Of a DNA stretch of 64,000 bases, positions 279-55,911 are shown one piece after another; position 1 is the stretch's first letter, and every line of letters starts with the position of its first letter. The DNA is from Aromatoleum evansii (lineage in GTDB: Bacteria > Pseudomonadota > Gammaproteobacteria > Burkholderiales > Rhodocyclaceae), in NCBI RefSeq assembly GCF_012910805.1, contig NZ_WTVK01000007.1, forward strand, positions 62,001-126,000. The letters run 5' to 3'. The notes below the pieces were generated by a model, which did no database searches, was not told where the DNA came from, and saw only the letters and a list, made by a program, of their open reading frames with translations. The translations under genes and the position numbers were made by a program.

Positions 279-3200
279 ATGTCTTATCTCCGCACCTTTC
301 TCACCGACTCGCGCACCCTGTCCTTCATCGGCGTACTGGCCCTCGCCGGCTTCCTGATGCTGGGTGCCGAAACGCTTGAACTCGCCTTGACCTGGGCGGC
401 GATCGCCTCGTGCGCCCTCCTCGCGCTCTGGATCGCCGTGTGGGCCTGGCGGCGACGCCGGGCCGGCCTCGCCGAGTCCGCACTCGAACGGATGCTCGAC
501 CCGCGCACGGGTGATGGCGAAGGCCGGACGAAGGGGGAAATCGAAACCCTGCGCCGGCGCATGAAGGAAGCCATCCGCACGATCAAGACATCGAAGCTGG
601 GGCTGGTCTCCGGACGCGCCGCGCTGTACGAGCTGCCGTGGTACATCACGATTGGCAACCCCGCGGCGGGCAAGAGCACGGCCGTCGTCAACTCCGGGCT
701 CACCTTCCCTCTCGGCGATGCCGCCGGCAGCGTCGTGCAGGGGCTCGGCGGGACGCGCAACTGCGATTGGTTCTTCACGACCGAGGGGATCCTCCTCGAC
801 ACCGCCGGCCGCTACTCCGTCCACGAAGAGGACCGCGAGGAATGGCTGGGTTTTCTCGACCTGCTGAAGAAGAATCGTCCGCTCGCGCCGATCAACGGCA
901 TCATCGTCACGGTGAGCGTCGGCGAGCTGCTCCGCAATCCGCCCGGCTTCGCGATCACGCTGGCCAAGAATCTGCGCCAACGGGTTCAGGAACTCACCGA
1001 ACGGCTCGAAGTGTTCGCGCCGATCTACGTGATGTTCTCGAAGGCCGACCTCATCGCGGGGTTCAACGAGTTCTTCCAGGACGTGGACTGGAACGAGCGC
1101 GACCGCGTGTGGGGAGCGACCCTGCCCTACGAAACCGCTGGAAGCAACGACGCCATCGGGCTGTTCGACCGCCACTTCGACGAACTGTATGAAGGGCTGC
1201 GCGAAATGAGCGTGGCTCAGATGTCGATTGCCCGCGGCGAACGGATGCCGCCCGGATTGCTCACGTTCCCGCTCGAGTTCGCCGCAATCAAGCCGGCCCT
1301 GCGGTCCTTCATCGCCACTCTGTTCGAGGAGAACCCTTTCCAGTTCAAGCCGATCTTCCGCGGCTTCTACATCACCTCGGCGATCCAGAGCGGGGAGACG
1401 CCCAGCAGCTCCAGCGAGCGGGTGGAAAAGCGCTTCGGACTTGCCGGCGATGGCCCGGCTGCTGCACGGATCGCCTCGAACAACGGCTTTTTCCTGAAGG
1501 ATCTCTTCTCGAAGGTCATCTTCGCCGACCGCAACCTGGTACGGCACTACGCGAGCCGGCGCAAGAAACGCCTGCATCACGCCACCTCGCTGGCAGCGGC
1601 GGCGCTGCTGGGCCTTTCGCTGGCGGGATGGAGCTGGTCCTACGCCAACAACCGCAGCCTCGTCGACAACGTCCGCGCCGACCTCGAACGCGCCGTGCGC
1701 ATTCAGGAAGACCGCGTCGACCTGCAGTCGCGGCTCGAAGCGCTCGAACTGCTCCAGGAGCGCATCGCACAGCTCGAACGCTTCGACACGGAACCGTCGC
1801 GTTCGCTCGGCCTCGGGCTGTTCCAGGGCAATGAAGTGAAATCCAGATTGCTCGAGGAGTACTACCGGGGCGTCAGGGAAATCATGCTCCGCCCGGTGAG
1901 CGAGAGCATCGAAGGTTTCCTTGCAGCCGTCAATCGCAATGCCGGCCGGCTGCGGCCGAGCGACACCCCCGGCCAGGGGGCGGTTGCGGGCGAGGCGCCC
2001 GAGGAGGCGCAGCCGTACAAGGAAACCTCGCCGACCAACGTCGAAGACGCCTACAACGCCCTGAAGACCTATCTGATGCTGGGCGACCGGGCGCATACCG
2101 AGGTCGGCCATCTCTCCGATCAGCTCAGCCGCTACTGGCGGACCTGGCTGGATGCCAATCGCGGCTCCATGCCGCGCGAGCAGATGATGCGCAGCGCGGA
2201 GCGGATCATCAGTTTCCATCTGCGGCATGCGAACGACCCCGGCTGGCCGACCATCGCAGGCAAGCTCTCGGTGATCGACGAGACGCGTGCGACGCTGCGC
2301 CATGTGGTGCGCGGCATGCCCGCAATCGAGCGCGTCTACGGCGACATCAAGGCGCGGGCGGCCACCCGCTTCCCGCCCGTGACGGTCGCGAACCTCGTCG
2401 GGCCGGACGACACCGGCCTGGTCAGTGGCAGCCATGTAATCTCCGGCACATTCACCGCCGAAGCGTGGCGCAGTTATGTCGAGGACGCGATCAAGGATGC
2501 TGCGACGGGAGAATTGCGCAGCACGGACTGGGTCCTCGACACCAGCGCGAAGGACGACCTCTCCCTCGCCGGCAGTCCCGAGCAGATCCAGAAGATGCTC
2601 GTGGCGAAATACAAGAAGGAATACGTCCAGGAATGGCAGAAATTCGTCACAGGCATCGGCGTCAGCGGATTCGACGGCTTCCCCGCCGCCGTGGCGGCCA
2701 TGAATCGCCTCGGCGACGTGGCCGCATCTCCCTTGGGGAAACTGCTGCGGACGGTGGATGAGCAGACCGCCTGGGACAACCCCGGGGTCAGCCATGCGGT
2801 AGCCGCGCGTGCGCAAAAAGGCTTCATCGAATGGTTCAAGCAGTCGATCCTGCGCATGTCGCCCGCGCCGGTCACGCTCGAGGTCCCCACTTCCACGACC
2901 GCTCCAGCCAGCCCGATGGGCGCCATCGGCCAGGAATTCGCCGGGGTCGGTCGTCTGATTGCGCGCCGCGACAACGGGGAATCGATACTGGACCTGTACC
3001 TGCGCCGGCTTTCCGGATTGCGGACGCGCCTCAATCTTCTCGCCAACCAGGGCGACCCGGGTCCCGGCGCCGTGAAGCTGATGAGCGAAACGATCGAAGG
3101 CGGCAACTCGGAACTTGCCGACACGCTGCGGTTCGTGGACGAGCAGATGCTGACGGGCATGCCCGACAATCAGCGTGAAGTGCTCCGCCCGCTACTGGTG

Positions 3201-4052
3201 CGCCCCTTGCTGCAGACCTTCGCAGCCCTGATCGGCCCGGCCGAGCGGGAGCTCGACAAGGGCTGGATCGCGAACGTCCATGAGCCCTTCGGCCGGCAGC
3301 TTGCCGGGAAGTATCCGTTCGACGCCGCGTCGGGAATCGAAGCGACGCCGGCCGAGATCGCGCAGATCTTCGGCCCGGAGGGCGCGATCTCGAAGTACGC
3401 GGCTAGCAGCATCGGGCCGCTGATGGTGCGGCGCGGCGACTATATCGAGGCGCGGACCTGGGGCGATCTCGGTATCCGCCTGCGCCCCGAATTCCTCGCG
3501 GCTTTCCCGGGCTGGGTCGCCCCCCTGGAGGGCGGCAGCGCCACCCCGGCCGCGCCGGTTGCGCAGACGAGCTTCCGGATGCTGCCGCAGCCCTCGCCGG
3601 GCACGACCGAATACACCATCGAGATCGATGGGCAAAGACTGCGCTACCGCAACGGCGCCGCCCAGTGGGCCACCTTCGTGTGGCCCAATCCGGCGGGAAC
3701 TCCCGGCGCGCGAGTCGTCGCGACGACCTTCGACGGACAGGAAATCGAGGTCGCCAACTTCAGCGGCCGCTTCGGGCTCGAAAAGCTGATCAACTCGGCC
3801 ACGCGCACACGCAACGCGGACGGCTCGTTCAACCTCGCCTGGCAGACGGGCGAGGTGTCGGTGCCTGTCACGCTCAAGATCGTGAGCAGCCCGGACGTGC
3901 AGACAGGCAAAGAGACCAGCCCCAGGGGCGGCCGCAACGCCCCGCTCCCCGCCAGCGTAGCCGGAGACGACGCGAAGACACAGGCCGCCATCGCCCCCGG
4001 TGGCGCGGCCACGCTCGCAACCGCGACTCAGCAGCGCGGGGGCGTGCAATGA
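279..4052 (+). CDS. tssM: Type VI secretion system membrane subunit TssM (IcmF/VasK)
   Basis: This is the large inner-membrane subunit of the T6SS trans-envelope complex; with TssL and TssJ it anchors the baseplate and tail to the envelope. The 1257 residues match the usual 1100-1300. Two membrane helices lie near residues 15-57 and a third near 433-455 (LAAAALLGLSLAGW). The cytoplasmic part between them carries a Walker A motif, GNPAAGKST (residues 126-134), and a LLDTAGRY-type Walker B. The long C-terminal region is the periplasmic IcmF-related domain. An ATGA overlap couples the gene to tagF. The Ala/Pro/Thr-rich extreme C-terminus looks disordered. Family assignment is secure. Confidence 0.96.
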   Translation: MSYLRTFLTDSRTLSFIGVLALAGFLMLGAETLELALTWAAIASCALLALWIAVWAWRRRRAGLAESALERMLDPRTGDGEGRTKGEIETLRRRMKEAIRTIKTSKLGLVSGRAALYELPWYITIGNPAAGKSTAVVNSGLTFPLGDAAGSVVQGLGGTRNCDWFFTTEGILLDTAGRYSVHEEDREEWLGFLDLLKKNRPLAPINGIIVTVSVGELLRNPPGFAITLAKNLRQRVQELTERLEVFAPIYVMFSKADLIAGFNEFFQDVDWNERDRVWGATLPYETAGSNDAIGLFDRHFDELYEGLREMSVAQMSIARGERMPPGLLTFPLEFAAIKPALRSFIATLFEENPFQFKPIFRGFYITSAIQSGETPSSSSERVEKRFGLAGDGPAAARIASNNGFFLKDLFSKVIFADRNLVRHYASRRKKRLHHATSLAAAALLGLSLAGWSWSYANNRSLVDNVRADLERAVRIQEDRVDLQSRLEALELLQERIAQLERFDTEPSRSLGLGLFQGNEVKSRLLEEYYRGVREIMLRPVSESIEGFLAAVNRNAGRLRPSDTPGQGAVAGEAPEEAQPYKETSPTNVEDAYNALKTYLMLGDRAHTEVGHLSDQLSRYWRTWLDANRGSMPREQMMRSAERIISFHLRHANDPGWPTIAGKLSVIDETRATLRHVVRGMPAIERVYGDIKARAATRFPPVTVANLVGPDDTGLVSGSHVISGTFTAEAWRSYVEDAIKDAATGELRSTDWVLDTSAKDDLSLAGSPEQIQKMLVAKYKKEYVQEWQKFVTGIGVSGFDGFPAAVAAMNRLGDVAASPLGKLLRTVDEQTAWDNPGVSHAVAARAQKGFIEWFKQSILRMSPAPVTLEVPTSTTAPASPMGAIGQEFAGVGRLIARRDNGESILDLYLRRLSGLRTRLNLLANQGDPGPGAVKLMSETIEGGNSELADTLRFVDEQMLTGMPDNQREVLRPLLVRPLLQTFAALIGPAERELDKGWIANVHEPFGRQLAGKYPFDAASGIEATPAEIAQIFGPEGAISKYAASSIGPLMVRRGDYIEARTWGDLGIRLRPEFLAAFPGWVAPLEGGSATPAAPVAQTSFRMLPQPSPGTTEYTIEIDGQRLRYRNGAAQWATFVWPNPAGTPGARVVATTFDGQEIEVANFSGRFGLEKLINSATRTRNADGSFNLAWQTGEVSVPVTLKIVSSPDVQTGKETSPRGGRNAPLPASVAGDDAKTQAAIAPGGAATLATATQQRGGVQ

Positions 4053-5032
4053 AGGCGGCTGCCATCCACGCCACAGGCTATTTCGGCAAGCTGCCCGCGC
4101 GTGGCGATTTCGTGAAGGGAGGCGGATCGACGCAACTCATCGCGATGCTCGATCGCTGGATCTCGGAGAGCATGAACCAGCTGTCGGCAGATCCGCGCTG
4201 GCGCGTTCCCTACGACAGCATGAGCCCGGTGCACTTCGCCTTCGTCGGTCCGCGCAGCCGCCTCTCCGTCGTCGGCCACCTGCAGCCGAGCCACGACGCA
4301 TCGTCCCGCCGCTTCCCCTTTCTCGTCGCGTCGACGATCGAGTCGGAGGCCGGACACGCCCCGCCCGGGCCACTGGCCCTGTCCTCGCTGTGGGCAAAGT
4401 TCGGGCACCTGGTCGGCCTGGCTCGAACGGCCGAGGAACCCGCGTCGATGCTGCACGCCCTTGCGCGCATAGACTGCAGCGAGGAGCTCGCGCACATCGC
4501 ACAACCGTCGGGAACCAGCGCAATGCCCGACGCAACGACGATGGCTGACCTTGACCGGCTGCTCGGACACGACGGCGGTAATGGACAGGCCCGCCGCATC
4601 ATCCTCGCCCTCGGCGTGCTGCTGCGTCCGCTGCTCGGGAGCAACCGGCCCGCGATCGAACGCGGCCTGCGGCTGCCCCTTCCGGACGATGTCGGACTGC
4701 GGGACGGGCTGGCGCAGGTCTGGGTAAACCTCATCAACGGCTTTCTCCGCAACACCTCCTGCGAACTCCAGCTGCTGCAGGCACCGGTTGCGGGACGCAA
4801 CACGCTGACCGTCGGCTTCAACGGTGCCTCGCCACTGCCCCTCGTCAGCCTGATCTCGCCGGCAAGCGCACCCGACGCCGTCGTGAGCCTGGAAGATCCC
4901 GAGTGGATAGACACGCACCCGGACCTGACCGGCGACTACGGAATCGCCAAGCTGTCGAGCTATCTCGCCCAGCCCGGGACGTCCCTCGCCATGGGGCTCG
5001 CCACCTTCAGGGAAGTATTTTTCGGAGAATGA
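4049..5032 (+). CDS. tagF: Type VI secretion-associated protein TagF (ImpM/SciT family)
   Basis: TagF proteins are post-translational regulators of type VI secretion that repress assembly in several species. The start is the ATG overlapping the tssM stop (ATGA), giving 327 residues. It opens with the family's hallmark N-terminus (YFGKLPARGDFVKGG, residues about 11-25), followed by the compact ImpM-like domain in roughly the first 180 residues. The remaining C-terminal part is less conserved. No PP2C phosphatase domain is fused here, unlike in some TagF proteins. The stop again overlaps the next start by four bases, so tssM-tagF-ompA form one translationally coupled unit. Confidence 0.9.
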   Translation: MKAAAIHATGYFGKLPARGDFVKGGGSTQLIAMLDRWISESMNQLSADPRWRVPYDSMSPVHFAFVGPRSRLSVVGHLQPSHDASSRRFPFLVASTIESEAGHAPPGPLALSSLWAKFGHLVGLARTAEEPASMLHALARIDCSEELAHIAQPSGTSAMPDATTMADLDRLLGHDGGNGQARRIILALGVLLRPLLGSNRPAIERGLRLPLPDDVGLRDGLAQVWVNLINGFLRNTSCELQLLQAPVAGRNTLTVGFNGASPLPLVSLISPASAPDAVVSLEDPEWIDTHPDLTGDYGIAKLSSYLAQPGTSLAMGLATFREVFFGE

Positions 5033-23709: not shown

Positions 23710-24444
23710 TCAGTCGCCCAGACCGCCGCGGCGCTGCAACTCCAACACGAGATACGTGGCCGCCTCGTCGGCGCTCATCGTCACGGTGTTGATGCGCACG
23801 TCGGGCGCTTCCGGCGCCTCGTAGGGGGAGTCGATCCCGGTAAAGTTCTTGAGTTCGCCGCGCCGTGCCTTCTTGTACAGACCCTTGGCGTCGCGTCCCT
23901 CGGCGACCTCGAGCGGCGTGTCGATGAACACTTCGAGGAATTCGTCTTCGGCCACCAGGCTGCGCGCCATCTGGCGCTCGGCACGGAAGGGCGAAATGAA
24001 GGCGGTGATGACGATGAGGCCGGCATCGACCATCAGTTTCGCCACTTCGGCCACGCGCCGGATGTTCTCAACGCGGTCGGCCTCCGTGAAGCCGAGGTCC
24101 TTGTTGAGCCCGTGGCGCACGTTGTCGCCGTCGAGCAGGTAGGTGTGATAACCCTGTGCGTGCAGCTTCTTCTCGACGAGATTGGCAACCGTTGACTTGC
24201 CGGCGCCGGACAGGCCGGTGAACCACAGCACGCACGGCTTCTGGTGCTTGAGCGCGGCGCGCGCAGTCTTGTCCACATCGACGTGCTGCATGTGGATGTT
24301 CTGGCTGCGGCGCAGCGCGAAGTGGATCAGCCCCGCGCCGACGGTGTTGTTGCTCAGGCGGTCGATGAGGATGAAGCCGCCGGTGTCGCGGTTGTCGGCA
24401 TAGGGATCGAAGGCGATCGGGCGGTCAAGGCTGAGGTTGCACAC
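23710..24444 (-). CDS. cysC: Adenylylsulfate (APS) kinase CysC, severed C-terminal part of a cysNC fusion
   Basis: Encodes the kinase that turns APS into PAPS. The frame opens with about 50 residues that belong to the end of CysN ([12 protein letters not shown]...[15 protein letters not shown]), then the APS kinase domain with Walker [21 protein letters not shown] and the FISPFRAER loop, all intact. In an undamaged fusion this domain would be the C-terminus of one protein. Here a 98-bp tandem duplication puts it out of frame with cysN. Independent translation would need the GTG at 24444, for which no good ribosome-binding site is seen. The kinase domain itself is complete. Confidence 0.88.
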
Positions 24445-24544
24445 GCGTTGCTCAGGCGGTCGATGAGGATGAAGCCGCCGGTGTCGCGGTTGTCGGCATA
24501 GGGATCGAAGGCGATCGGGCGGTCAAGGCTGAGGTTGCACACGC
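24349..24544. repeat. Exact 98-bp tandem duplication inside cysNC
   Basis: Positions 24349-24446 and 24447-24544 are identical over all 98 bases, with no spacer. Because 98 is not a multiple of three, the second copy shifts the reading frame. The duplicated unit encodes the CysN segment from CNLSLDRP to IDRLSN. Removing one copy leaves 1908 bases (636 codons) from the cysN start to the cysC stop, restoring a single open fusion gene. Confidence 0.97.
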
Positions 24545-25715
24545 CGATCGCGTTGAGGTCCAGCGTGCGCGCGGCCACGTGCTCCAGGGTGTTCACGTTG
24601 ACCTGGTACTTGATGTGGGTGACGGTCGCGGTGACGGTCTTCGCCCCGATCTTGAGCAGATAGGGGCGCCCAGGCAGCAGCGGCTCGTCGTGCATCCATA
24701 CGAGCGTCGTCTCGAACTGGTCGGCCGAGCCGGCGGGCGAGTCGGCCGTCGAGATGACGTCGCCGCGCGAGATGTCGATCTCGTCGGCGAGGGTCAGCGT
24801 GATCGACTGGCCGGCGACGGCCTGCTCCAGGTCGCCGTCGCGCGTGACGATGCGCGCGACCGTGCTTTCCTTGCCCGAGGGCTGGACGCGGATGCGGTCA
24901 CCGGGCTTCACGATGCCGCCGGCGACGGTGCCGGCGAAGCCGCGGAAATCGAGGTTCGGGCGATTGACCCACTGCACGGGCAGGCGGAAGGCTTGCTTCT
25001 GCAAGCGCTCGTCGTCGACCTCGACGGTTTCGAGGTAACCCATCAGCGTCGTGCCGTGATACCAGGGCATGTTGGCGCTGGGCTCGATTATGTTGTCGCC
25101 CTTGTAGGCGGACATCGGGATGAAGGTCACGTCATCGAGGCCGATCTGGGCGGCGAAGCTGCGGTAGTCGTCGCAGATGCGCCGGAACACGGGCTCGGCG
25201 TAGTCGACGAGGTCCATCTTGTTGATCGCGACCACGATGTGGCGGATGCCGAGCAGCGACACGAGGTAGCTGTGGCGCCGAGTCTGCGTGAGCACGCCGC
25301 GGCGGGCATCGACCATCAGCACCGCGGCGTCGGCGGTCGAGGCGCCGGTCACCATGTTGCGCGTGTATTGCTCGTGGCCCGGCGTGTCGGCGACGATGAA
25401 CTTGCGCTTGTCGGTGGAGAAGAAGCGATAGGCGACGTCGATCGTGATGCCCTGCTCGCGCTCGGCGGCGAGGCCGTCGACGAGCAGCGCGAAGTCGAGA
25501 TTCTCGCCCTGGGTGCCGTACTTCTTCGAGTCGGCTTCCATCGCGGCGAGCTGGTCTTCGAAGAGCATCTTCGATTCGTACAGCAGGCGGCCGATCAGCG
25601 TGCTCTTGCCGTCGTCGACGCTGCCGCAGGTGATGAAGCGCAGCAGGCTCTTCTTCTCGTGGGCCTGCAGGTACTGCTCGATGTCGGTGGCGATCAGATC
25701 CGAGATGTGGGCCAT
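24354..25715 (-). CDS. cysN: Sulfate adenylyltransferase large subunit CysN (cysNC frame broken by duplication)
   Basis: GTPase subunit of ATP sulfurylase; with CysD it makes APS from sulfate and ATP. The start MAHISDL follows the cysD stop by one base. EF-Tu-like motifs are intact: [21 protein letters not shown] and NKMDLVDY. Two beta-barrel domains follow. The frame continues normally to IDRLSN, then enters the second repeat copy out of phase and stops at 24354 after about 30 aberrant residues, giving 453 residues. The last strand of the third domain is lost, so the protein may be partly functional or unstable. The undamaged gene would encode a 635-residue CysNC, the typical length. Confidence 0.93.
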
Positions 25716-25716
25716 G

Positions 25717-26616
25717 TCAGAAGTACCCCTCTTGTTTCTTCTTTTCCATCGAGGCGGCCGAGTCGTGGTCGATGACACGGCCCTGGCGCTCGGAGGTCTT
25801 GGTCAGCAGCATCTCCTGGATGATCGCGGGCAGCGTGTCGGCCTCGGACTCGACCGCGCCGGTCAGCGGGTAGCAACCGAGCGTGCGGAAGCGCACCTTC
25901 TTCATCATCGGCACTTCACCCGGATGCAGCGGCATGCGCTCGTCGTCGACCATGATCAGCGCGCCGTCGCGCTCCACGACCGGGCGCACGGCGGCGAAGT
26001 AGAGCGGCACGATGGGCACCTTCTCGAGGTAGATGTATTGCCAGATGTCGAGCTCGGTCCAGTTCGACAGCGGAAACACCCGCATCGACTCGCCCTTGTG
26101 CTTGCGGGCGTTGTAGAGCTTCCACAGCTCGGGGCGCTGGCTCTTCGGGTCCCAGCGGTGCTGCGCGGTGCGGAAGGAGAAGATGCGCTCCTTGGCGCGG
26201 GATTTCTCCTCGTCGCGGCGTGCGCCGCCGAAGGCCGCATCGAATCCGTACTTGTCGAGCGCCTGCTTGAGGCCCTCGGTCTTCATGATGTCGGTGTGGA
26301 TCGCCGAGCCGTGGGTGAAGGGGTTGATGTCCTTCGCGACCCCGTCGGGGTTGATATGCACGATGAGGTCCAGCCCGAGCTTGCCCACCATCTCGTCGCG
26401 GAAGGCGTACATGTCGCGAAATTTCCAGCGCGTGTCGACGTGCAGCAGCGGGAACGGCGGGCGCGCGGGGTGGAAGGCCTTCATCGCAAGGTGCAGCATC
26501 ACGGCGCTGTCCTTGCCGATCGAATACAGCATCACCGGGTTTTCCGCTTCGGCGACCACCTCGCGCATGATGTGGATGCTTTCGGCTTCGAGACGCTGCA
26601 GGTGGGTAAGAGACAT
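25717..26616 (-). CDS. cysD: Sulfate adenylyltransferase subunit CysD
   Basis: Catalytic small subunit of ATP sulfurylase (PAPS-reductase-like fold). The start ATG at 26616 ([14 protein letters not shown]) has a GAGGA Shine-Dalgarno and gives 299 residues, the usual length. The PP-loop motif [15 protein letters not shown] lies near residue 30. The mid-protein [20 protein letters not shown] block and the C-terminal KKKQEGYF are diagnostic. It is the first gene of a leftward cysD-cysNC operon, separated by one base from cysN. Confidence 0.97.
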
Positions 26617-26714
26617 CGATGTCCTCGTGATGACGATGAATTGCACAGCCGGCCCGCGTGATCGGGCCTACAATGCCGCGTCGTCAAGTATACCAACCGG
26701 CTGGAGCCACACCT

Positions 26715-27508
<794 letters not shown>

Positions 27509-27512
<4 letters not shown>

Positions 27513-29236
27513 CGGCCTACGCAGTCCTCCTATCCATTGCCGCATTGCTCGCGCTGCTGATCCGCGGCCGCGTCGCACCGGCGATCCTGTTCACCGTGTG
27601 GGCCGCGGCGTACTACCTCGCCGGGCTCGTCAGCGAGCGCGAGTGGCTCACCGGCTACACCAATTCAGCGCTGATCACCTTGATCGTGCTCTTGCTGGTG
27701 TCGCTGGCGCTGGAGCGCTCGCCACTCCTGGACCGCTTTTCGGATCTCGTACTGCGGGGGGGGGCGGCACGAGCGATCCTGCGCCTGTCGGCCGTGACGA
27801 CGCTGTTTTCGGCGGCCCTCAACAACACCGCAGTCGTCGGCGCCCTGCTGGGGGTCGTCTCCAAGCAACGCCGCGTGGCGCCATCGAAGCTGCTGATCCC
27901 CCTTTCGTACGCCGCGATCCTGGGCGGCGTTACGACCCTTGTCGGCACCTCGACGAACCTCGTCGTCAATTCCTTCGTGATCGACGCGGGGCTCCCGCCG
28001 CTGAAGATGTTCCAGTTCAGCCTCGTCGGCATTCCGCTGGCGCTCGCGTGCATCGCCGTGATGGTGCTGTGCTCGGGCCTACTTCCGGCGCATGAACCGG
28101 CCGCACGGGAGAACCGCCAGAGCTACTTTCTCGAAGCACAGATCACCCCCGATTCGCCCCTGGCCGGTCGCAGCATCGAGCAGAACCGCTTGCGCAACCT
28201 CGATGGTCTGTTCCTGCTGGAGCTCGAGCGCGAGGGGCGGCTGATTTCGCCGGTGGGGCCGGACGAGATTCTCGAGGAGGGCGACGTCCTCATCTTCACC
28301 GGGCAGGTCGAAAAGGTGCAGGCGCTGCAGCAGATTCCCGGCCTGCAGGTGTTCGGCACGCGCGCCGACGCGCTGCTGGGCTCCAACCTCGTCGAGGTGG
28401 TGATCTCGAACGAGTCGATCCTGCCCAATCGCACGCTGCGGGAAGTGGACTTCCGCTCGCAGTTCGACGCCGGGGTCGTCGGCATCCGGCGCGGCGACAA
28501 GCGCCTGACCGGCCAGCTCGGGCGAATCCCGCTGCGCGTGGGCGACGCGCTGCTGCTCGCCGTCGGCCCCGACTTCGCCCAGCACCGCAACATCGACCGC
28601 AACTTCCACCTGCTCGACACCGGCGTGCTGCGCCCGAGGCTGACGCCGCGCCAGAGCACGCTCGCGCTGAGCGGCTTCGCGCTCGCGATCGCGGTGTCCG
28701 CGGTCGGTATTTGGCCGCTGCTGAACTGCCTGCTGGTGCTGCTCGCGATCCTGCTCGCGACGCGCATCCTGTCGGTGAGCGAGATGCGCCGGCGCTTTCC
28801 CTTCGACCTGCTGGTGACGATAGGCTCGGCGCTCACGATCGCGAAGGCGCTGGAATCCTCGGGCGCGGCCGAGCTGGTCGCCGACGCCATGCGCAGCCTG
28901 TTCGACGGGCACGGCGTAGTCGGGGCCTTCGTCGGCGTATACCTGATCACTGTCGTGCTGACCGAAGTCATCACGAACAACGCCGCTGCCGCGCTCGCGT
29001 TCCCGATTGCGCTATCGACCGCCCGCGCGTTCGACGTCGACCCGATGCCCTTCGTGATGGCGATCGCCTACGGGGCGAGCGCAGGCTTCCTGATCCCCTT
29101 CGGCTACCAGACCCACCTGATGGTGATGTCGCCGGGCCGCTACCGCACGATGGATTTCATCCGCGCCGGCCTGCCGGTCAGCCTGACCTATTCGGCCGCC
29201 GTCCTGTTGCTGGTGCCGGTATTCTTCCCGTTCTGA
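27509..29236 (+). CDS. SLC13/DASS-type permease with two RCK_C (TrkA-C) domains
   Basis: A 575-residue inner-membrane transporter. Helical halves flank a central cytosolic region (residues about 190-360) made of two RCK_C domains (SPLAGRSIEQNRLRNLDGLFLLELER and the matching segment with ILPNRTLREVDFRSQFDAGVVGI). Typical SLC13 hairpin motifs are present (NNTAVVGALLGV, TSTNLVVNSF, TNNAAAALAFPI). Members carry sulfate, dicarboxylates or other anions. The overlap with cysQ (ATGA) makes sulfate import the leading guess. A nine-G homopolymer (27756-27764) lies in the coding sequence. Confidence 0.85.
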
Positions 29237-50889: not shown

Positions 50890-51852
50890 ATGTCGCTAGC
50901 GGTCCTCGCAAAGCTGCCGAAACTGCTCGATCGCGAGATTCGCGACAAGAACCTGCGAGCCTTGGGGTGGCGGGCGAAAGAGGCGATCTGGTCGATCACG
51001 CGGCCGGCAATGCCCGATCCGGTATTCGTGATCGGCTGCTCGCGCTCGGGAACGACGGTGACCTTCGAGACGATCGCGGCATCGGGGCATTTCCTGCACT
51101 TCGATTTCGAGATTCCGCAACTCTGGAACGGGCTGCGTGGCCCGCTGAACAACGGCTGGGACTCGGAGGCCGCGACGGCGGACGATGCACGGCCGGAGCA
51201 CCGCGACCGCGTGCTGGCGTACTTCTACGCACGGCTCGGCGCGGGGCCGGTGCTCGACAAGACCTGCATCAACACGCTGCGCGTGCCTTACCTGCATGCC
51301 CTGTTCCCGAAGGCACGCTTCGTGTTCATCCAGCGCGACGGCCGCGACAATGTCAGCTCGATGATGGACGGCTGGCGCCTGGGGCGCACCGACGGGGGCT
51401 TCGGCCTGACGCAATTCTTCGGCCCGTCGCCCGAGCCGGTTGCGATAAACGACGGGGAGTTCCGCGAGTGGCACTTCTTCCTGCCGCCGGGATGGCGCGA
51501 ATTCAACCGCGCAAGCCTCGAGGAGGTGTGCGCCTTCCAGTGGGTCACTGCGAACCGCCTCGCGCTCGACGCGGCGCGTGCGATTCCGCCGGAGCAGTGG
51601 ATCGGCCTGCGTTACGAGGACATCTTCGAACGCCCCGTCGACATGTTCCGCGAGGCGTTCGAGCGGCTGGAGGTGCCGTTCGATGCGCAGACCGCGCAGC
51701 GGTGCGCGAACCTGGTGTCGCGGCCGACGAGCATCGTGAAGGGGGCACCGCAGAAGCAGAAGTGGAAGGAACACAATCCGGCAGCAGTCGAGCGGATCCT
51801 GCCGATGATTGCGCCGCTGATGCGCGAAATGGGGTACGACCCGGATGACTGA
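50890..51852 (+). CDS. Sulfotransferase-family protein
   Basis: A 320-residue cytosolic protein of the PAPS-dependent sulfotransferase fold. The 5'-phosphosulfate loop is GCSRSGTT (residues 49-56), followed further on by DKTCINTLRVPYLHALFPKARFVFIQRDGRDN, which holds the 3'-phosphate-binding motif (FIQRDGRDN). A third motif is the C-terminal GAPQKQKWKEHNP. Strong Shine-Dalgarno AGAGGGA. Placement between glycosyltransferases suggests it sulfates the polysaccharide; the acceptor is unknown. PAPS could come from the cys genes at the left of this locus (inference). Confidence 0.88.
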   Translation: MSLAVLAKLPKLLDREIRDKNLRALGWRAKEAIWSITRPAMPDPVFVIGCSRSGTTVTFETIAASGHFLHFDFEIPQLWNGLRGPLNNGWDSEAATADDARPEHRDRVLAYFYARLGAGPVLDKTCINTLRVPYLHALFPKARFVFIQRDGRDNVSSMMDGWRLGRTDGGFGLTQFFGPSPEPVAINDGEFREWHFFLPPGWREFNRASLEEVCAFQWVTANRLALDAARAIPPEQWIGLRYEDIFERPVDMFREAFERLEVPFDAQTAQRCANLVSRPTSIVKGAPQKQKWKEHNPAAVERILPMIAPLMREMGYDPDD

Positions 51853-52741
51853 AGCGCCGACGGTCAGCGTCGTCATTCCCGCCTACAACGCAGCCTGGTG
51901 CATCGAGCGGGCCGTACGCAGCGTGCTCGCACAGACGCACAGCGCGGTCGAACTGATCGTGGTCGATGACGGCAGCACGGACGGGACGGCCGAGGTGCTG
52001 GCGCGCTTGGCGACGGGCCTGCGGCTGCTCGCGAAGCCCAATGGCGGCCTCAGCAGTGCGCGCAATGCGGGGATCGCTGCGGCGCGGGGGTGCTATGTTG
52101 CATTCCTCGACGCGGACGACTGGTGGGAAGCCGACAAGCTTGCACGCCAGGTGGCGCTGATGGAGGCGCGGCCGGAGCTGGCGTTTTGCTCGACGGCGGC
52201 GCGGATCGCCGATCCGGAGGGGCGTCACGTGGGCGACTGGCCCTGCGGCTGCAGCGAACCACACGTGCTCGACGCCATCTTCGCAGAAAACGGCTCGATC
52301 GCCGGCAGCGGCTCGGCGGTGATGGCCCGGGCGGACGCGCTGGCGCAGGCGGGCCCGTTCGACGAGAGTCTGCGCAGCCTCGAGGACGTGGACATGTGGA
52401 TGCGCCTGGCGGCCATCGGGGGGTATGCGTGCGTCGCGGAACCGCTCGTCGTCATCACCAGACACCCGGACAGCATGAGCCGCAACCTGGACGTGATGCG
52501 CGACGCGGCGCGGCGCGTGATGCGCAAGAACCGCCACCTGCTACCGCCCGAGAAGCGCGGGGCGTTCTGGCGCCACGCCTATGCGGGCATGCTTTCGGAC
52601 TACGCCAAGTGGGCGTGGCGCACGCAGCGGCGCGGGCAGGCGCTGCGCGACCTGCTGACCGGTCTGTGCATCGCGCCCATCAGCCGCGGCCGGCTGATGG
52701 CAGGCCTGCTGCTGGCGATGCTGAGCAACCGGACGGTGTAG
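51845..52741 (+). CDS. Family 2 glycosyltransferase
   Basis: A 298-residue GT-A enzyme: PTVSVVIPAYNAAWCIERAV, VDDGSTDGTAEVL, FLDADDWW and an acceptor-side SLEDVDMWMRLA. It overlaps the sulfotransferase by eight bases and ends 2 bp before the GT2-sulfatase fusion, so it belongs to the same transcript. The C-terminal part contains basic patches that may contact the membrane. Confidence 0.92.
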   Translation: MTEAPTVSVVIPAYNAAWCIERAVRSVLAQTHSAVELIVVDDGSTDGTAEVLARLATGLRLLAKPNGGLSSARNAGIAAARGCYVAFLDADDWWEADKLARQVALMEARPELAFCSTAARIADPEGRHVGDWPCGCSEPHVLDAIFAENGSIAGSGSAVMARADALAQAGPFDESLRSLEDVDMWMRLAAIGGYACVAEPLVVITRHPDSMSRNLDVMRDAARRVMRKNRHLLPPEKRGAFWRHAYAGMLSDYAKWAWRTQRRGQALRDLLTGLCIAPISRGRLMAGLLLAMLSNRTV

Positions 52742-52743
52742 CC

Positions 52744-55700
52744 ATGCCGGGCGAACCGCTGCGCATCACGGTCCTGATCTGCACCTACAATCGTGCCGAA
52801 TTGCTCGGACGTGTCATCGAGTCGCTGAACGCCGCGCTGAGGCCGGACGATGCTCAGGTCCGCCTCTTTGTCGTCGCCAATGCCTGCACGGACGGCACCC
52901 ATGCACTTCTGGACGCATACGGTGCGACGCCGGGACGCCTCCCGCTGGAGTGGATCAACGAGCCGACCCCGGGAAAGTCGCACGCGCTCAACCGCGCACT
53001 GCCGATGCTCGAAGATCCGGTCGTGGCCTTCGTGGACGACGATCACCGGGTGGACTCCGGCTATCTGCGCGGCATCGCGCACGCGGCGCGGACGTGGCCG
53101 CAGGCGGGCCTGATCTGCGGGCGCATCCTGCCCGACTGGGACGGCACCGAACCGGACTGGGTGCACGACGACGGCCCCTACCGCATCTATCCGCTGCCCG
53201 TGCCCCGCTACGACCAGGGCGACACTCCGATGCGCGTCGATCTGGACGGCAACATCCCAGGCGGCGGCAATCTTGTTGCGCGGCTCGAGGTGTTACGCAC
53301 CACCGGCCCCTTCCTCACCGAGCTCGGCCCGACCGGGCATGACCTGGGGGGCGCGGAGGATCTGGAGTGGGTTCGCCGCGCGATGCGCACGGGCGCCGTG
53401 CTGCAATACGCGCCGGAGATCGTCCAATATCACTACGTCGATGGCGAGCGCCTCACGCTGTGGTACCTGATGCGCAAGGGCTTCCAGCGCTCGAAGTCGG
53501 TCATGCGCTTCCGGCGCACGGAGAGCGGTGTGCCGCTGTACATGTGGCGCAAGGTCACCGCCTATGCGGGCGGCTGCGCGCTGGCGTTGCGCTCGCAGGT
53601 GCGGCGCTTCTATCTCGTGCGGCTTGCGTCGGCCTTCGGCGAGATGAGCGGCATGCGCGAGGCTGCGCAACACCGGCGCAGGCGTGCTCGCCTGCCTTGG
53701 CTGCCGGTCCAGAGCAGCCTTGCTTTGGCCGGCACACTCGGGCTTGGCGGCTTCGGACTAGCCGCGCAACTCGCATGGTCGAGGATTGCCGACGTGCTGT
53801 TGCCGGCATTGGTGGTCGCCACGCTGGTGACGCTCGCACTGATCATGAAGTCGGTGATCGACTTCTCGCAAACCGGACCGCAACTGCGCGAGGAAATCGT
53901 GCGCCGTTACCGCGCGTACTTTCCGTTCGCGATGGCTCGACTGGGCGTGTGGTCGCTGATCATCGGTCTCTTCTGCACGCTGCCGGGCGCCGTGGTCGCG
54001 GCAGCCGGGGCCGATGTGCTCGGGGTGCCGCACGAACCATGGCGCGCCGCGGCCGGAGGCCTGCTTTCCATGGCTCTCATCGGCACCTACGTCACCTGCC
54101 GAACCCTGGTGCATAACCCGGGGCTCATCGTCGCATCTTGGCAATATCGCACCGACCGCCTTCACCGCCTGTGGAACCGCCTGTCGGCACAAGGCCTGCG
54201 ACGCGCAGCGCTCGCCGGCACCGCTGCGATCGCGACGCTGTTCGCGGGGCTCGTAAGCGCCCTGGTCCTGTCGGGCCACGGTGACTCTGCCGCCGCCCTC
54301 ACCAGCCTGGGCGTCGGTTACTGGGGCCTGATGGTGTTTGCGCTGTGGGAACCCGAAGGTGACATTGCGGCGCCGCGCCCCGGAGGACGACCGAACCTGA
54401 TCCTTATCGGCTCGGACACGCTGCGCGCGGACCGCGTCGGCACCCAGCGAAAGGGGCAGCCGTTGACGCCACATATCGACGCACTGGCGCGACGCGGCAC
54501 GCACTTCCAGAACTGCTACGTGCCCTGCGCGAGAACTGCGCCCAGCCTGATCTCGCTGCTCACCGGGACCTGGCCGCACACGCACGGGATCCGCGATAAC
54601 TTCGTCGCGACCGACGAGACGCAACTGGAGGTCCAGGCCCTGCCCACGATCCTGCGCGCGCTGGGCTATCGCACGGCCGCCGTCTCCGACTGGTGCGGCG
54701 CAGACCTGGGCAAGTTCTCGCTGGGGTTCGACGTGCTGGATCTGCCCGAGGACCAGTGGAACCTGAAGTTCCTCATCCGCCAGGGCCCGAAGGACATCCG
54801 CCTGTTCCTGTCGCTGTTCCTGCACAACCGCGTCGGCCGTCTGTTGCTGCCCGAAGTCCATTACCTGAGCGGCGCACCGCAGACGACCCAGCTCGGACAG
54901 CGCACCCGCCGGCTGATTTCCCGGCTCGCGAGCACGTCCGAACCGTTCCTGCTCAACGTCTTCTATTCCACGACCCACCCTCCGTTCGCGTCGGAGTACC
55001 CGTACTACCTGCGCCATGCGGACCCCGACTATTCGGGGGCATCGAAGTTCGCCATGGCGCGCCTGACCGACCCCTTCGAGATCATCCGGCGGCAGGGCGA
55101 ACCGCGCGAGGAATTCGACCTCGACCAGATCCTCGCGCTGTACGACGGTTGCGTGTCGCAATTCGACGACGAAGTCGGGAAGCTCATGAACCATCTGGCC
55201 GCAACGGGGCTTGCGGAGAACACCATCGTCGTGCTGTACAGCGACCACGGCATGGAGTTCTTCGAGCACGACACCTGGGGGCAGGGCAATTCGGCCGTGG
55301 GCGACTTCAGCGCGCGCGTGCCGCTGGTGGTCGCGGATCCGCGGATGAACCACCCCGTAAGGGTCGATCAGGTGGTCCGCTCGATCGACGTGCTGCCCAC
55401 CCTCCTCGACCTGCTCGCCGCGCCGTCGGTGCGCTGTGACGGCGTGTCGCTCACGGCAACGATGCAGGATCCGCACCGCGAGTTGCATCTGAAAGGATTC
55501 AACGAGACCGGCATCTGGATCGCCCGCGTACCCGGCCTGCCCCACGACCACCTGAACTACCCGGAACTGCTGGAGCTTCTGGACATCCCTAACGAGGCCA
55601 GCGGGTCGCTGTCGATCAAGGACGAATTCAAGGAACTCGTGGTGATCGCCAAGGACCGCATGATGCGCGACGGGCGATGGAAGCTAGTCTATCAGCCACT

Positions 55701-55911
55701 GGAGAGCGGGATGCGACTCACCTTGTTCGATCTGGATACCGATGCCGACTGCACGCGCGATTTGTCGGCGGAACACCCCGAATTGGTCGCACGGCTGTGG
55801 CAGGAGTTGCAGAGCTGGATCGAGCGCGATCCGGTTGCGCGGCGCCATCTGCGGACGACGGCAGCCCCCACCGCGATCTCTATTCCGGCTTTTTCTCCTG
55901 ACCTGCCTTGA
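52744..55911 (+). CDS. GT2 glycosyltransferase - membrane helices - sulfatase-superfamily fusion
   Basis: A 1055-residue multidomain protein. Residues about 1-310 are a GT2 domain (ITVLICTYNRAELL, VAFVDDDHRV, GGAEDLEWVRRA). Residues about 320-540 hold about five helices. From about 550 it is an alkaline-phosphatase/sulfatase-superfamily domain: LIGSDTLRADR (metal Asp), LISLLTGTWPHTHG, YSDHGMEFFEH (D834/H835). At the nucleophile the sequence is TAPSL, not the C/S-x-P-S-R needed for formylglycine; T598 occupies the position. A phospho-transferase or phosphodiester-type reaction is therefore more likely than sulfate-ester hydrolysis (inference). Start ATG is 2 bp after the previous gene. Confidence 0.85.
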   Translation: MPGEPLRITVLICTYNRAELLGRVIESLNAALRPDDAQVRLFVVANACTDGTHALLDAYGATPGRLPLEWINEPTPGKSHALNRALPMLEDPVVAFVDDDHRVDSGYLRGIAHAARTWPQAGLICGRILPDWDGTEPDWVHDDGPYRIYPLPVPRYDQGDTPMRVDLDGNIPGGGNLVARLEVLRTTGPFLTELGPTGHDLGGAEDLEWVRRAMRTGAVLQYAPEIVQYHYVDGERLTLWYLMRKGFQRSKSVMRFRRTESGVPLYMWRKVTAYAGGCALALRSQVRRFYLVRLASAFGEMSGMREAAQHRRRRARLPWLPVQSSLALAGTLGLGGFGLAAQLAWSRIADVLLPALVVATLVTLALIMKSVIDFSQTGPQLREEIVRRYRAYFPFAMARLGVWSLIIGLFCTLPGAVVAAAGADVLGVPHEPWRAAAGGLLSMALIGTYVTCRTLVHNPGLIVASWQYRTDRLHRLWNRLSAQGLRRAALAGTAAIATLFAGLVSALVLSGHGDSAAALTSLGVGYWGLMVFALWEPEGDIAAPRPGGRPNLILIGSDTLRADRVGTQRKGQPLTPHIDALARRGTHFQNCYVPCARTAPSLISLLTGTWPHTHGIRDNFVATDETQLEVQALPTILRALGYRTAAVSDWCGADLGKFSLGFDVLDLPEDQWNLKFLIRQGPKDIRLFLSLFLHNRVGRLLLPEVHYLSGAPQTTQLGQRTRRLISRLASTSEPFLLNVFYSTTHPPFASEYPYYLRHADPDYSGASKFAMARLTDPFEIIRRQGEPREEFDLDQILALYDGCVSQFDDEVGKLMNHLAATGLAENTIVVLYSDHGMEFFEHDTWGQGNSAVGDFSARVPLVVADPRMNHPVRVDQVVRSIDVLPTLLDLLAAPSVRCDGVSLTATMQDPHRELHLKGFNETGIWIARVPGLPHDHLNYPELLELLDIPNEASGSLSIKDEFKELVVIAKDRMMRDGRWKLVYQPLESGMRLTLFDLDTDADCTRDLSAEHPELVARLWQELQSWIERDPVARRHLRTTAAPTAISIPAFSPDLP

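Follow-up and report, generated by a model that had tools for sequence, protein, structure and literature searches.

The draft genome of Aromatoleum evansii carries, in the 64,000-nucleotide stretch of DNA that we analyzed (the window), a cysNC gene interrupted by an exact tandem duplication of 98 bp. The locus raises two questions: whether the duplication is a mutation, an error of the assembly or a reversible switch, and which function the cell would lose by it.

The duplication and the split cysNC frame

A preliminary description of this DNA had reported two identical, abutting 98-bp units inside cysNC. Tandem Repeats Finder bore this out, giving 2.0 copies with 0% indels and a score of 392, and the two units are 100% identical (0 differences). 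The gene runs on the minus strand from 25715 to 23710, a strand that the preliminary description had left unstated, and is composed of the following parts.

24354-25715, minus strand: cysN part of cysNC (NF004035, 743.8 bits; TIGR02034 positions 1-402 of 406)
24447-24544, minus strand: 98-bp unit read first, in which the cysN frame is kept
24349-24446, minus strand: 98-bp unit read second, in which the cysN frame is shifted, with a stop at 24354
23710-24444, minus strand: cysC (APS kinase) part, in the other frame only (PF01583, 242.2 bits)

Since 98 is not divisible by 3, CysN and CysC lie in different frames. As had been described, CysN reads normally through the first unit, shifts in the second and stops there (stop codon at 24356-24354). 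With the start taken as the ATG at 25715 (the mechanical list of open reading frames starts at a GTG at 25778), the product has 453 aa: the first 423, up to where the first unit ends, are normal, and the last 30 form a shifted tail. CysC had been said to be open in the other frame only, and this was confirmed, as the open stretch of that frame extends from immediately below a TGA (24525-24523) down to its stop codon (23712-23710). The GTG at 24444 is the first start it could use, and further starts are the ATG at 24291 and the GTG at 24276; a GTG at 24540 was rejected as a start, since it sits above the TGA at 24525. The cysN and cysC frames overlap by 169 bases. The arithmetic of the preliminary description was also right: from 25715 to 23710 there are 2006 bases, and removing 98 leaves 1908, or 636 codons including the stop, next to the 632 positions of the NCBIfam CysNC model NF004035. 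By itself, the CysN piece exceeds the cut-off of this model (743.8 versus 715 bits), and the CysC piece matches its positions 392-629 (374.9 bits). The GTPase part of CysN and the APS kinase part of a bifunctional CysNC are thus both recognized, with no single open frame for the two, as the duplication splits them.

An exact tandem copy of 98 bases cannot be ascribed to chance. At lag 98 the run of identity is exactly 98 bases, so that microhomology at the junction is zero. This absence decides nothing, because 54% of random breakpoint pairs at cysNC have no microhomology either, and it fits an unmerged overlap of contigs and a real event equally well. An alternative in which 105 bp were duplicated (4 bases recur 105 bp further on) and 7 bp were then lost was dropped, since a 4-base match near a breakpoint occurs in 14% of random cases. 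Short-sequence-repeat contingency loci consist of many copies of a unit of 1-10 bp, and with 2.0 copies of 98 bp cysNC is not one of these. It does have one feature used to recognize phase variation, namely an exact tandem duplication within an ORF that causes a frameshift.

Same-genus orthologues and the age of the duplication

The relatives were drawn from a same-genus set of 17 genomes, one per species, including that of A. evansii. Eleven gave informative orthologues (G001, G003, G005-G008 and G011-G015); G002, G004, G009, G010 and G016 gave weak, uninformative matches to the unit query and were left out. The preliminary description had proposed a comparison with close relatives, among which a shared two-copy allele would have spoken against its reading, and no such allele was found in the 11 orthologues. 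In every one of them the unit aligned once, over 98/98 bases, and a one-copy query of 298 bases aligned without gaps over 272-298 bases, with 97% identity over 298 bases in the closest relative (G006). In all 11, a single open frame spans cysNC, with 647-804 codons from stop to stop, some of these frames being cut by the end of the locus. A simple CysC motif failed to match G003 and one of the G001 copies, but the APS kinase profile placed both in open frames, of 647 and 697 codons. Searched against the 17 genomes, this profile gave 18 strong matches (E < 1e-69), after three weak ones (E ~6e-4 to 8e-4) were dropped; the open frames that contain the 17 strong matches of the other genomes have 635-1097 codons, compared with 270 here.

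Exact tandem repeats with a period of 20-399 were absent from the genus loci L011-L038, and among the loci L039-L118 they occurred only in L045, at positions 2486 and 4947, neither of which falls in the cysN match of that locus (3001-4269). Among the best 80 of 590 loci from a wider collection, 71 were flagged as fused by motif and none came from a relative closer than 80%, in a collection from which near records may be left out.

Compared with the six closest relatives, Ka/Ks was 0.035-0.059 for cysN and 0.037-0.080 for cysC, and the relatives compared among themselves gave 0.045-0.071; five more distant orthologues of the genus, which stand outside the quoted range, gave 0.048-0.225. In the comparison with the closest relatives there is thus no sign of relaxed selection on the cysN or cysC part. 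Because neither half has decayed and the two units have no differences, the duplication is recent. The earlier claim that the fusion was intact until a recent event is therefore supported, both by the Ka/Ks values and by the single copy and open fusion of the relatives.

Sulfur genes around cysNC and a second assimilation set

The genes that bear on the function of cysNC lie in its neighborhood, farther to the right in the window, and at a second locus of the genome.

25717-26646, minus strand: cysD, sulfate adenylyltransferase small subunit (TIGR02039, 523.6 bits)
26658-27512, plus strand: cysQ, 3'(2'),5'-bisphosphate nucleotidase, divergent (TIGR01331, 284.4 bits; cut-off 228.8)
27509-29236, plus strand: anion/sulfate-type symporter with TrkA-C domains, beside cysQ (CitMHS, TrkA_C, Na_sulph_symp)
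50890-51852, plus strand: sulfotransferase-like gene (PF13469, Sulfotransfer_3, 71.3 bits; cut-off 27)
L124, 9856-15641 (contig C276): second set, with a CysI-like reductase, cysH, cysD and cysN (profile matches)

The gene cysD is directly upstream of cysN, its stop being separated from the cysN ATG by 1 base. To the right, the window contains a polysaccharide region that includes glycosyltransferase genes and a ligase-like gene of the exosortase-A-associated type (PEP_O_lig_1, 529.6 bits). The sulfotransferase-like gene, which is likely a user of PAPS, sits among the glycosyltransferase genes; when the genome was searched with Sulfotransfer_1, it was one of two matches and stayed below the cut-off, while the other, on contig C187, was over it. 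Also near the sulfotransferase is an open frame of 1273 codons (window positions 52090-55911) with glycosyltransferase-like and arylsulfatase-like parts, which might represent two genes sharing that frame. PAPS-synthesis and sulfotransferase genes within a polysaccharide cluster have been described as a hallmark of sulfated polysaccharide synthesis (PMC11641403).

Across the genus, a Sulfotransfer_3 match lies at most 30 kb from 12 of the 18 strong APS-kinase loci (split matches in one frame being merged by hand), including cysNC of A. evansii with the match at 50890-51852, where 0.40 would be expected under uniform placement; this figure is not a clean test, because the 30-kb limit was set post hoc and the genomes are related. 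Both an APS kinase and a sulfotransferase are present in 10 of the 17 genomes, a sulfotransferase alone in G002, and neither in G004 and G009. Four of the 14 genomes with a strong APS kinase match have no Sulfotransfer_3 match (G010, G012, G016 and also G013, which is among the closest relatives), and these count against a universal link between the two functions. In G001, the contigs C2 and C13 (loci L018 and L033) hold three strong APS-kinase matches, each less than 20 kb from a sulfotransferase match. Overall, the cysNC of this genus looks like a supply of PAPS for sulfotransferases, apart from cysteine synthesis.

The second set could serve cysteine synthesis. Its cysN, of 426 aa, scores 600.2 bits against the CysN equivalog cut-off of 590 and has no APS kinase part; a stop flagged within the match is its own terminal TGA. 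The nitrite/sulfite reductase-like gene at this locus is below the CysI-model cut-offs. CysH exceeds the cut-off for APS reductases (262.2 versus 235.3 bits) and is below that of the PAPS-reductase model TIGR02057 (144.3 versus 254.2). It has CC at residues 273-274, CAPC at 356-359 and ECGLH at 383, which we take to be the cysteine pattern of APS reductases. Since CysH is also above the cut-offs of TIGR00434 (169.6; cut-off 165.1) and of NF002537 (288.2; cut-off 154), a model named phosphoadenylyl-sulfate reductase, we infer rather than assert that its substrate is APS, and the cysteine pattern offsets the pass of the PAPS-named model. An APS-reductase match over the cut-off was found in 16 of the 17 genomes of the genus.

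If CysH does use APS, CysC would be unneeded for cysteine, and, given this APS-reductase-type CysH and the second, intact cysD-cysN pair, cysteine synthesis is probably independent of cysNC. A knock-out of sulfate assimilation was judged unlikely on the same grounds. For this reason the earlier suggestion of an on/off switch for sulfate activation finds no support, and growth on sulfate, which had been proposed as a test, is unsuitable, since sulfate assimilation should continue. The only APS kinase match in the A. evansii genome is the one in the broken cysNC, and the duplication is predicted to cost the cell the sole APS kinase found, hence the PAPS for sulfotransferases. Loss of APS kinase is tolerated in nature, as G002 and G004 had no match and G009 a weak one.

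Readings of the allele and known systems

We favor, with reasonable though far from complete confidence, a recent spontaneous duplication of 98 bp, arisen inside cysNC in the strain or in culture, which would split the gene, spare the APS-making enzymes and the cysteine route, abolish APS kinase, PAPS and sulfation, and be reversible. Ribosomes would complete nearly the whole of CysN and then stop, and because positions 1-402 of the 406 in TIGR02034 are kept, the CysN piece may still be active and make APS. Little or no CysC would probably be made from its frame, since there is neither a slippery heptamer nor an obvious ribosome-binding site. APS production would continue from the CysD and CysN of the cysNC locus and from the second, intact cysDN, and the cysteine route would be kept through APS reductase. 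With the only recognized APS kinase gone, PAPS would be lost, and with it the sulfation carried out by the linked sulfotransferase, whose target is probably an exopolysaccharide. Replication slippage could collapse the exact repeat to one copy, making the mutation reversible in principle; in E. coli, the deletion of 101-bp tandem repeats is frequent and does not require RecA (PMC8378479), and a return to one copy would be expected here because such repeats are lost so readily.

This reading presumes that the duplication is present in the DNA and is not an error of the assembly. The assembly consists of 330 contigs, and we sampled 129 unmasked stretches of it, including the window, amounting to 2,123,036 bases or 36% of 5.94 Mb; 12 further short contigs were masked and left out of the sample. 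Among 121 contig ends compared, 12 pairs had identical termini, of 127 bases in seven pairs, 128 in two, 129 in two and 174 in one, and the lengths of 127-129 bases in 11 of the 12 pairs point to de Bruijn assembly at k = 127. The order of the contigs appears largely to follow SPAdes-style names sorted as text, under which 16 of 20 picked contigs were long as predicted and four were short. No N occurs in the sampled bases, which thus give no sign of a scaffolding step. The 98-bp repeat is the longest exact repeat of two full, abutting copies in these 2.12 Mb (periods 10-999); the next with a period of at least 25, multi-copy arrays of shorter units aside, is of 27 bp. This 27-bp repeat (L246 12808-12861; contig C264, ~112808) has a length that is a multiple of 3. 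A 172-bp tandem repeat of near-exact copies, with identical runs of 111 and 138 bases, was also seen (L183 13089-13510; contig C291). The start of L228 and the end of L197 (contigs C66 and C328) share an unmerged overlap of 111 bases, likely a coverage gap in the assembly.

An artefact would have arisen if two contig ends with an overlap of 98 bases had been abutted unmerged, cysNC being intact in the cell. Two copies of full identity without microhomology are the expected product of such an overlap, the undecayed state of cysNC agrees with it, and the pair overlapping by 111 bases shows that breaks of this kind exist here. Moreover, 98 is 99 - 1, and assembler series that end at 127 commonly include 99 as an intermediate k; by our own count, k or k - 1 of such a series accounts for about 7% of the lengths between 20 and 200. 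Against this, the 98-bp repeat is shorter than the final graph k of 127, so that a two-copy path should require 127-mers across the junction, although earlier rounds at smaller k could have been the source of these. The pair with the 111-base overlap stayed as separate contigs, the sampled 2.12 Mb contain no N, and no second exact two-copy repeat of such size was found in the sampled 36%. We therefore regard an artefact as a substantial but minority possibility, and a real spontaneous duplication as most likely.

If the duplication is real, it might instead be a selected phase-variation switch, in which a recurrent duplication reverting at high frequency toggles the sulfation of surface polysaccharide. 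The repeat is built like the reversible tandem duplications described for capsule genes of pneumococci (PMC4243769, PMC4022640). It is exact and in tandem, and the gene that contains it is linked to a polysaccharide region. However, no duplication of the unit was seen in the 11 same-genus orthologues, there is no short repeat or microhomology that could prime the event, and recurrence is more than a single genome can show. We consider such a switch improbable, and because of the zero recurrence in the 11 orthologues we do not file cysNC under phase variation. Slightly harder still to credit is a genus-wide switching of sulfation by recurrent duplication and collapse in cysNC as the sole source of PAPS, with cysteine shielded by the second cysDN and the APS reductase. 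It is very improbable, in turn, that the split is a working one, with a downstream start or -1 frameshifting still yielding CysC, as one of two proteins or within a longer fusion. In its frame the CysC domain is whole, this frame and that of cysN overlap by 169 bases, and by our own arithmetic from the coordinates the direction that joins the frames is -1. That overlap, however, holds no XXXYYYZ heptamer, as programmed -1 frameshifting would use, and no run of five equal bases, no AGGAG-like motif was seen by eye upstream of the three candidate starts, and none of the 11 orthologues is split. We regard the cysNC allele as a single loss-of-function allele, probably real and probably ordinary.

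By itself, the finding amounts to a single loss-of-function allele of a single draft genome. It is of mild importance in that its surroundings hint at the purpose of cysNC, a PAPS supply separate from cysteine synthesis. If that is its role, the mutant should have an unsulfated exopolysaccharide and normal growth on sulfate, and as an exact tandem repeat is self-healing, the culture may hold both alleles.

Reversible tandem duplications have been described in the pneumococcal capsule genes of the type 3 locus, cap8E and tts (Waite et al. 2001, 2003). As in those genes, a tandem duplication within the ORF of cysNC would halt the product and could revert, and there is a link to surface polysaccharide; recurrence and reversion are reported for the pneumococcal genes, whereas the cysNC duplication is known from a single genome, and cysNC would supply PAPS where the pneumococcal system affects a capsule-building enzyme. 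The 101-bp repeats in E. coli tetA (PMC8378479) are close to those of cysNC in length, tandem layout and expected ready collapse, but they belong to an assay plasmid, while cysNC would be a natural mutation. In Mycobacterium tuberculosis, APS from CysD-CysNC goes to APS reductase or, through CysC, to PAPS for sulfotransferases (PMC4373884). The A. evansii locus resembles that system and the NF004035 family in joining CysD to a CysN-CysC fusion, and differs from M. tuberculosis in that the fusion is broken and a second cysDN pair sits with the reductase. In Vibrio sp. KMM 8419, second copies of cysC, cysN and cysD lie inside a sulfated capsule cluster (PMC11641403), and in both organisms a second copy of PAPS-making genes is near sulfotransferases in a polysaccharide cluster; in the Vibrio report cysC is named as a gene of its own and the structure of the polysaccharide is known.
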